A DNA stretch of 39,467 nt. Origin: Chloroflexia bacterium (GTDB lineage Bacteria > Chloroflexota > Chloroflexia > Thermomicrobiales > CFX8). Location of the stretch: NCBI GenBank assembly GCA_030431755.1, contig JAUIIK010000038.1, positions 1-39,467 of the forward strand. The letters are read 5' to 3'. A program made the translations under genes and the position numbers. This document shows, one piece after another, positions 34,026 through 36,371 of this stretch. The first letter of the stretch is position 1, and each line of letters opens with the position of its first letter. The notes beneath the pieces are model-generated. The model did no database searches and was not told the origin of the DNA. It saw nothing but the letters and a program-made list of their open reading frames with translations.

Positions 34026-34433
34026 ATGAGCGATCAGATCGAGTCCGTTGGCGGGTTCAGCGTGATCCGAGCGGGAGGCGATGGCATCCACTTCGGTGAT
34101 TACCATAACGCTGTGGGAGTCAACGCCCACACTGTCGGCTCGGCCGGCCTGTCGATGGATCTCCAGACGATCCCTCCGGGCGTGGAATCGCCGCCGCACA
34201 TCCACGCCGGCTTCGAGGTCGCGCTCTACATCCTCTCCGGGCGGATCATCCATCGCTGGGGCGCGCGGCTTGAATACGAGGCGGCGGCCGGCCCCGGCGA
34301 CATGCTCTATGTCAGCCCAGATCTACCGCACCAGAGCCTTAACGCCAGCGACAGCGAGCCGGTCGTGTTGGTTGTAGCCCGAACCACCGCCGACGGCGCG
34401 GCCGGCAACGTACCGTACACTCTGCCCGAGTAG
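34026..34433 (+). CDS. cupin-domain protein
   Basis: Small single-cupin protein (135 aa) of unknown substrate. Cupin motif 1 is PPGVESPPHIHAGFEVALYILSGRI (metal His-x-His and Glu) and motif 2 is GPGDMLYVSPDLPHQSLNAS (His). GAGCC precedes the ATG at 34026. It lies 43 bases after the zinc-ribbon gene and about 70 before the radical SAM selenoprotein gene on the same strand, so these may form one transcript. Proteins of this size are often metal-dependent dioxygenases, isomerases or sensors. Confidence 0.85.
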   Translation: MSDQIESVGGFSVIRAGGDGIHFGDYHNAVGVNAHTVGSAGLSMDLQTIPPGVESPPHIHAGFEVALYILSGRIIHRWGARLEYEAAAGPGDMLYVSPDLPHQSLNASDSEPVVLVVARTTADGAAGNVPYTLPE

Positions 34434-34505
34434 CTCGCGCATAGCGCCGGGCGGGCAGATCGACTAGGCTTGGTCTGTCGAGTGTATCGGGAGGCAACAC
34501 CGCGG

Positions 34506-36002
34506 ATGGCGCTGACGAAACAACCGCCCACAATGGCAGTCGAACTGGCTGAGCCCGGCGCGATCCTGCTCGTCTCCTGCTACGAACTGGGCCGTCAGCC
34601 GCTGAATCTGGCCTTCCCGCTGGCCTATCTGCGCGAAGCCGGCTATGCCCCGACGGTCGTCGACACGGCAGTCAACGCCTTGACCAGCGCACAGATCGAG
34701 CAGGCGCGGCTCGTCGCCATTTCGGTGCCGATGCATACCGCCTTGCGGCTTGGCTTGCAAGTCGCCGAACAGGTGCGCTTGCTGAATCCGGATGCCCACA
34801 TCTGCTTCTACGGCCTCTACGCCTGGCTCAATGCCGATTACCTGCTGCGCCAGGCGGCGGACTATGTCATTGGCGGCGAGTTCGAAGCGCCGCTCCTGCG
34901 GCTCATCGAGAGCCTGGAGCAGGGGCAGTCGGGAGCTGTCGACGGCGTCAGCAGCCGCGAGCAGCGTGTCGAGCCGTCGCTGGAGCGGGTCAGCTTCTTC
35001 GCGCCCGACCGCGCCGACTTGCCGGACATGCAGGACTACGCTTGGCTTATTGACGGTGAGCGCAATGTCCCGGCCGGCTATGCCGAGGCGACGCGTGGCT
35101 GCCACCATCTCTGCCGCCACTGCCCGGTTGTCCCGATCTACAACGGCCGCTTCTTTGCCGTGCCGCGCACAGTCGTCATCGACGACATCCGGCGACAGGT
35201 CGAGGGCGGGGCAGGCCACATCACCTTCGGCGACCCCGACGCGCTCAACGGGCCAACCCACCTGCTGCGCATCATGCGGGCGGTCCATGACGAGTATCCC
35301 GAGGTGACCTTCGACATCACCACCCGCATCGAGCACATCATCGAGCATCGCGAGATCTTCCCGGAGCTGGCCGAGCTTGGCTGCATCTTCATCATTTCGG
35401 CGGTCGAGTCCGTCAGCAACCTCGTGCTTGAGAAGATCGACAAGGGGCACACGAAGAGCGACATCGTCGAGGCGCTCGGCATCTGCAACGCCGCCGGTAT
35501 CGCCCTGCGACCGTCGCTCTTGCCATTCACACCCTGGACGACGTTGGCGGACTACATCGAGCTCGTCGAGTTCATCGAGACGCACGACCTGATCGAAAAC
35601 GTCGACCCGGTCCACCTTTCGATCCGCTTGCTGGTGCCGCCCGGCTCGGCCTTGCTCGACCAGCCGGAGACTGCTGACTGGATCGGCCCGCTTGACGAGG
35701 CATCATTTACCTATAGCTGGACGCACGCTGACCCCCGCGTCGACGCGCTCCAGCGAACCGTCGCACAACTCGCTGAAACAGCCGCCGAGCAGGAATGGGA
35801 TGCGTTCACGACCTTCGACGCGATCCGGGCGGCTGCCTATGAGGCTTCAGGCTCAACACCGCCGATTGGCGCGACGCGCCGGAGATCGCGCAAGGCCCCG
35901 CCACGGCTCACCGAATCGTGGTTCTGCTGAGCGGAGCCCACCGCGAGCCAGTTAGGCGCGCAACAGCAACACAGCAGCGGCTTCCCGGTCAGACTCGACT
36001 GA
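34506..36002 (+). CDS. B12-binding/radical SAM selenoprotein with CUAEP tail
   Basis: Radical SAM enzyme of 498 residues if the in-frame TGA at 35928-35930 is read as selenocysteine. ATG 34506 follows GGGAGG (12 bases); GTG 34482 and TTG 34470 are alternatives. Residues about 18-140 resemble a cobalamin-binding-type domain (LLVSCYELGRQPLNLAFPLAYLREAGY, VAISVPMHTAL). The [4Fe-4S] motif is Cys199-x3-Cys203-x2-Cys206 (GCHHLCRHC), followed by GHITFGDPD and DITTRIEH, as in the TIM barrel. The tail reads SWF-Cys474-Sec475-Ala-Glu-Pro, then 20 residues to a TGA at 36000-36002. This matches the tail I recall from NCBI's CUAEP/CCAEP-tail radical SAM family, whose members carry Cys-Sec or Cys-Cys. A conventional reading would end at 35930 and lose the tail. 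Substrate unknown. Confidence 0.88.
35928..35930 (+). other. in-frame TGA read as selenocysteine
   Basis: The codons around this TGA are TGC TGA GCG GAG CCC, giving Cys-Sec-Ala-Glu-Pro. The frame stays open for 20 more codons to a TGA at 36000-36002. The exact match to the CUAEP tail is the main evidence for recoding. Confidence 0.82.
35942..35960 (+). promoter_or_regulatory. candidate bacterial SECIS hairpin
   Basis: CGC (35942-35944) and GCC (35947-35949), with a GA bulge between, pair with GGC (35955-35957) and GCG (35958-35960) around the loop AGTTA (35950-35954). The loop begins 19 bases after the TGA and has G at its second base, which fits the reported bacterial SECIS constraints (loop about 16-37 bases downstream, G among the first two loop bases). 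An outer stem, CTGCTG (35924-35929) with CAGCAG (35972-35977), would close the structure around the TGA. Paired by hand, not by a folding program. Confidence 0.55.
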
Positions 36003-36371
36003 CACAGACTGGCGTTGGACACCGCGTGTCTCTGCGCGTGGATTGCCGTCGGTTGCCCTTGAGATCTCACGATCAACCAGCATGCACCCGGAGCTATCCA
36101 GCACCGCAATTGGCATCCCGCCGTAGTGATTTACGAGCACCTGGGCCGCGCCTCGGGTGAGACCAGACCTGTCGCCCCGGCTTGTTCGGCAGATCAAGCT
36201 GCATTGATCTTGGTTGCTTCGATCTATTCGTAGGGGTGGAGTTCATCTCCACCCGGCTACGGGCTCGAAGACAAGACCGGGTGGAGATGAACTCCACCCC
36301 TACGATGTTGTGCATGGCTTCTTCTGGGGCTGGTGAGGAAGCGTGTCTTGCTCGATTGCGCTTGGACGGGG
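36003..36371. other. intergenic region after the selenoprotein gene
   Basis: These 369 bases lie between convergent genes. Apart from palindromic repeat copy D (36229-36304) I see no supported gene. Short open frames on the minus strand across 35837-36197 have no recognisable content and overlap the selenoprotein tail. Confidence 0.5.
36229..36304. repeat. palindromic repeat, copy D
   Basis: Arms 36229-36256 (CGTAGGGGTGGAGTTCATC...) and 36277-36304 are perfect 28-base reverse complements around a 20-base spacer. Each arm folds as GGGTGGAG-ATGAA-CTCCACCC. Compared with copy B, G-to-A and C-to-T changes occur in all four stem strands, preserving pairing. Confidence 0.87.

Follow-up and report, generated by a model that had tools for sequence, protein, structure and literature searches.

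The window analysed here, the whole stretch of 39,467 nt from a Chloroflexia bacterium, contains on its forward strand (34506–36002) a gene for a radical SAM protein with a Cys-Sec-Ala-Glu-Pro (CUAEP) tail. The gene starts with ATG at 34506, and GGAGG at 34490–34494, 11 nt 5' of the ATG, was read in the sequence as a likely ribosome-binding site. The codons TGC-TGA-GCG-GAG-CCC at 35925–35939 place an in-frame TGA (35928–35930) directly 3' of the Cys474 codon. After the AEP codons there are 20 sense codons and then the terminal TGA at 36000–36002, and read-through of the first TGA adds 24 residues to give a product of 498 residues including Sec475. An earlier note on this DNA, made from the sequence alone, had given the same coordinates and codon counts, which were exact on re-reading. 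The codons of the radical SAM [4Fe-4S] motif, Cys199-x3-Cys203-x2-Cys206, lie at 35100–35123, and the motif was invariant in 37 relatives. Just downstream of the gene, positions 36228–36305 hold an inverted repeat whose 29-bp arms match perfectly and are separated by a spacer of 20 nt. It recurs in tens of similar copies genome-wide (79 match rows when both strands are counted), which makes it a dispersed palindromic REP/MITE-like element.

A family defined by a CUAEP or CCAEP tail, as named in the earlier note, exists in NCBIfam as NF040546, "CUAEP/CCAEP-tail radical SAM (seleno)protein". The protein matched it with 737.6 bits over model positions 1–467 of 468 (cut-off 500) and thus falls in a family that already has a name. 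The full-length match, the C-U/C-A-E-P tail in its CUAEP form and the Cx3Cx2C motif are shared with the family and nothing sets the protein apart, although its final ~15 residues are unconserved and longer than in most members. That the gene product is an NF040546 selenoprotein can be stated with very high confidence. In a sample of 400 genomes from Chloroflexota, 93 had a match above the NF040546 cut-off, most with one internal TGA and the rest with none. The papers searched gave no function for the family; CUAEP was absent from them, matches to CCAEP were unrelated papers, and an earlier account of the neighbourhood may exist.

Selenocysteine at the in-frame TGA

A readable tail was available for 71 distinct relatives, of which 50 have Sec and 21 have Cys at position 475. 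The earlier note had proposed looking for such Cys homologues and had named homologues without AEP codons downstream as the case that would speak against it; AEP followed instead in every readable tail. The tail in the loci read was FC/YC-U-AEP or FC/YC-C-AEP, and TGA was exchanged only with TGC or TGT. The fact that AEP was kept in all readable tails and that TGA alternated only with these two codons indicates that the in-frame TGA is not there by chance. C199, C203, C206, C474 and C/U475 were the sole invariant cysteine positions in an alignment of 37 diverse members, in which A476-E477-P478 were invariant too. A tree built without the tail from all 71 distinct forms (50 Sec, 21 Cys) needed ~10 Sec/Cys switches, 8 of them forced by starred branches, and placed the gene under study in an all-Sec clade of 7.

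A bacterial SECIS hairpin was located on the forward strand at 35943–35961, with stem GCGAGCC (35943–35949), loop AGTTA (35950–35954) and stem GGCGCGC (35955–35961). Its energy was −8.4 kcal/mol and its loop starts 19 nt past the TGA; by means of this hairpin, 13–31 nt downstream, the UGA at 35928–35930 would be read as Sec. A SECIS-type hairpin lay at a fixed place in 49 distinct Sec genes, with the loop starting 19–20 nt after the UGA and with the G at column 23 (loop) and the closing C-G pair each present in 49/49. Stem pairs covaried in the Sec genes, pair 17-31 occurring as GC, CG, GU, UA and AU and pair 20-28 as CG, GC and UA. The paired stem fraction was 0.84 in Sec genes and 0.46 in Cys genes, which lack the hairpin; shuffling partners between sequences gave 0.69 (maximum 0.75). 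G in loop positions 1–2 was found in 48 of 51 Sec and 10 of 21 Cys genes (p=3e-5). Hairpin energy by itself did not tell Sec from Cys genes (p=0.13) and was rejected as the sole SECIS test, since position, loop G and covariation do the separating. An Rfam scan of the window gave no match.

The genome encodes the whole selenocysteine machinery that the earlier note had suggested looking for. Searches of the genome detected selA (506 bits) and selB (318 bits), and tRNA-Sec with anticodon TCA (78 bits) and SelD (363 bits) were also found. The SelD gene (L132:6734–7729, minus strand) has its own in-frame TGA, and its product is a selenoprotein candidate itself, with the motif TAGUASK. Across the 400 sampled genomes selA was present in 322. 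A rule by which the Cys form would mean a lack of Sec machinery was rejected, as selA occurred in 78 of 80 CUAEP genomes, most Cys-form ones included.

The public record of WP_012643191.1 (L133:9971–11407), the orthologue in Thermomicrobium roseum, adopts termination at the first TGA, with the remainder untranslated. This orthologue is 61.5% identical and carried on a megaplasmid according to the plasmid records. That protein was deposited as ending in SWFC at the Sec codon, with AEP encoded beyond. The truncation by gene callers that had been predicted is thus found in this orthologue, and CUAEP proteins are cut short in this way. The AEP kept beyond the TGA, the Cys exchange, the covariation of the SECIS and the complete Sec machinery leave hardly any room for termination at this codon. 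With a recoded UGA, a SECIS and Cys homologues all in place, TGA 35928–35930 is almost certainly a selenocysteine codon, and, apart from proof by protein chemistry, we regard Sec475 as established.

Structure model and kinship with ArsL

The match to PF04055 (Radical_SAM; 46 bits, cut-off 29.5) and the Cx3Cx2C motif place the protein in the radical SAM superfamily. The earlier note had found that the N-terminal domain layout and this cluster motif fit a group of B12-binding/radical SAM proteins. The match of the N-terminal domain to PF02310 (B12-binding) was weak, with 26.4 bits against a cut-off of 32.1, and DxHxxG was absent, so that cobalamin binding is not established. An AlphaFold2 model (pLDDT 91.5, pTM 0.90) showed a Rossmann-like domain and a chain ordered through residue 478 and disordered after 482. 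The nearest solved folds were AprD4, OxsB and TsrM at 16–18% identity, which do not decide the chemistry. No solved structure was found by single-sequence search.

The second-best family was ArsL (NF040542), with 324.2 bits over residues 20–421, below its cut-off of 450. The two enzymes are homologous over ~400 residues with about 34–38% identity and have the RGCHHxC cluster region in common. They also share a vicinal Cys pair at the C-terminus, and an ATP-grasp ligase is present in some ArsL loci. ArsL ends in RCCLKC, whereas the CUAEP enzyme has its CUAEP after an extra segment of ~40 residues, and only the CC pair is common to the two tails. MAFFT placed the near-terminal CC of ArsL on Cys474-Sec475 across this gap of ~40 residues. 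No ars genes were found next to the CUAEP gene, which is not in an ars operon. New here, as judged by sequence comparison, is that the nearest relatives are the ArsL enzymes and that the terminal Cys-Cys of ArsL aligns with Cys-Sec. ArsL moves the 3-amino-3-carboxypropyl (ACP) group of SAM onto arsenite (PMC8552651; PMC12159101).

Partner genes across genomes

Neighbourhoods of 73 CUAEP loci were surveyed over ±8 kb, or as far as the contig reached. Of these, 35 contained a protein with the formyltransferase fold, with an ATP-grasp ligase in 26 and YggX (PF04362) in 15; the next-commonest family occurred in 9. All four genes were adjacent in three loci (L087, L099 and L101), and the ligase adjoined CUAEP also in contigs of Nitrospirae, Rokuibacteriota, Calditrichaceae and Latescibacterota. 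In the source genome a separate contig (G000:C168, ~42.6–45.1 kb) carries the genes for the ligase, YggX and the formyltransferase as a group, and this trio was kept in the three ligase-bearing relatives of the same family and in the neighbouring family. The cupin gene immediately upstream (34026–34433), which the earlier note had hinted at as a partner, was rejected because it was not conserved in other CUAEP neighbourhoods.

In the sample of 400 genomes the ligase was present in 97 of 99 CUAEP genomes and in 34 of the 301 others (Fisher p=1.4e-60), these sets being compiled by hand from tables with partial CUAEP matches counted as present. Of the 64 genomes with a strong match to the formyltransferase, 62 also had CUAEP (p=7.5e-44). 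Shared descent inflates both p-values, and more weight attaches to the finding that the four genes have been brought together repeatedly in separate lineages. New here is the module of CUAEP with an L-amino-acid ligase, a formyltransferase and YggX, and the CUAEP enzyme very probably belongs to it. Such partners suggest that the enzyme has a part in making a small molecule. About 34 Chloroflexota genomes have the ligase without CUAEP (loci L197–L201, L206–L211 and L213–L215), so the ligase is not exclusive to the CUAEP enzyme. In most of these loci that were read, it adjoins an NfuA-type Fe-S carrier. Both YggX and NfuA serve to maintain Fe-S clusters.

Among solved structures, the partner ligase came closest to the L-amino-acid ligases BL00235 and BacD, which it matches across the ligase domain with 212 and 113 bits, respectively, and it has an LAL_C2 domain. 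It differs from them by an invariant Cys after RxxGG (115 loci), which sits at a helix start in the predicted model. In the formyltransferase N134, H136 and D172 were invariant, and the Fmt score was 140, below the cut-off of 201.5. An N-H-D triad is typical of folate-dependent formyltransferases.

Proposed chemistry

The ACP transfer of ArsL, the alignment of its Cys-Cys with Cys-Sec and the ligases in ArsL loci lead us to infer an ArsL-like ACP transferase in which Cys-Sec is the ligand of the acceptor. A [4Fe-4S] cluster at Cys199, Cys203 and Cys206 would cleave SAM, most likely to an ACP radical, while Cys474-Sec475, as the counterpart of the terminal Cys-Cys of ArsL, would hold a soft metalloid or chalcogen acceptor atom. 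The product would be an unusual non-protein amino acid, which the partner ATP-grasp ligase may couple to another amino acid and the formyltransferase may then N-formylate, with YggX or NfuA maintaining the Fe-S cluster. We favour this explanation as a whole, though by a narrow measure, and rate ACP transfer by the CUAEP enzyme at slightly below an even chance. AprD4, OxsB and TsrM, the nearest solved folds, have chemistry other than ACP transfer, which counts against it. So do the score under the ArsL cut-off, the CUAEP tail in place of RCCLKC, the lack of neighbouring ars genes, the ~40-residue gap crossed in aligning the two CC pairs, the low identity of the ArsL-linked to the CUAEP-linked ligases and the occurrence of the ligase without CUAEP.

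The earlier note had suggested a redox or metal-handling role for the Cys-Sec pair. The pair might instead be a mobile redox tail that binds no acceptor atom and either supplies the enzyme with electrons or reduces a disulfide of the substrate. Sec mostly replaces redox-active Cys, thioredoxin reductase has a vicinal Cys-Sec near its C-terminus, and the model shows disorder beyond residue 482, all of which would suit such a tail. However, the invariant AEP and a chain ordered through 478 are unlike a free redox tail, and ArsL, which among relatives ending in a CC pair is the closest, handles arsenite; this kinship points rather to a pair that binds a soft acceptor atom onto which the aminocarboxypropyl group is transferred. 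We consider the redox tail rather unlikely. A further reading makes the protein a radical SAM methyltransferase that depends on cobalamin, or a relative of such an enzyme, in which the tail tunes cobalamin or the substrate. The weak matches to PF02310 and to several B12-binding radical SAM families and a fold resembling OxsB and TsrM would fit this, but PF02310 scored under its curated cut-off without DxHxxG, and the best fold match, AprD4, is a dehydratase, one that lacks cobalamin despite its Rossmann domain. A cobalamin-dependent enzyme is on this evidence improbable.

The ligase of the source genome carries an in-frame TGA (G000:C168:44238–44240, minus strand; L131:8239–8241) at residue 295 of its translation, exactly at the invariant Cys. 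The same position was Cys in all 115 other readable loci, including those of relatives in the same family. A SECIS-like hairpin (−9.7 kcal/mol) has its loop, CGGGAC, 23 nt after the UGA, and homologues with Cys have hairpins that are at least as good. The codons in the gene that are TGA, or differ from it by a single base, number only 11. It is possible that the TGA is a nonsense mutation or an assembly error. Because no other genome has this TGA, relatives of the same family keep Cys, the hairpin does not stand out and so few codons are at or near TGA, the ligase is kept as a lead, a possible second selenoprotein of the pathway. Other TGA-bearing ligase matches were examined as candidates and rejected, as they had terminal or fragment stops, none at the invariant Cys.

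The kinship with ArsL, the invariant Cys-Cys or Cys-Sec and the set of partners across 400 genomes turn an unknown selenoprotein into a testable four-gene pathway. If the proposed chemistry is true, the enzyme would be a selenocysteine-assisted one that forms a carbon-heteroatom bond. As a tentative and somewhat doubtful extension, the CUAEP core with the ligase, the formyltransferase and YggX or NfuA may form an undescribed pathway, common throughout Chloroflexota and occurring in at least four further phyla, to a formylated peptide with selenium, arsenic or a similar atom; the source genome would use Sec both in the radical SAM tail and at the invariant Cys of the ligase. ATP-grasp ligases were also observed beside ArsL (L134, 1735–2958; L135, 1430–2662) on plasmids of Priestia and Alicyclobacillus. 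ArsL-linked and CUAEP-linked ligases had ~25% identity, and the presence of the former suggests that arsinothricin-type amino acids may become peptides there.
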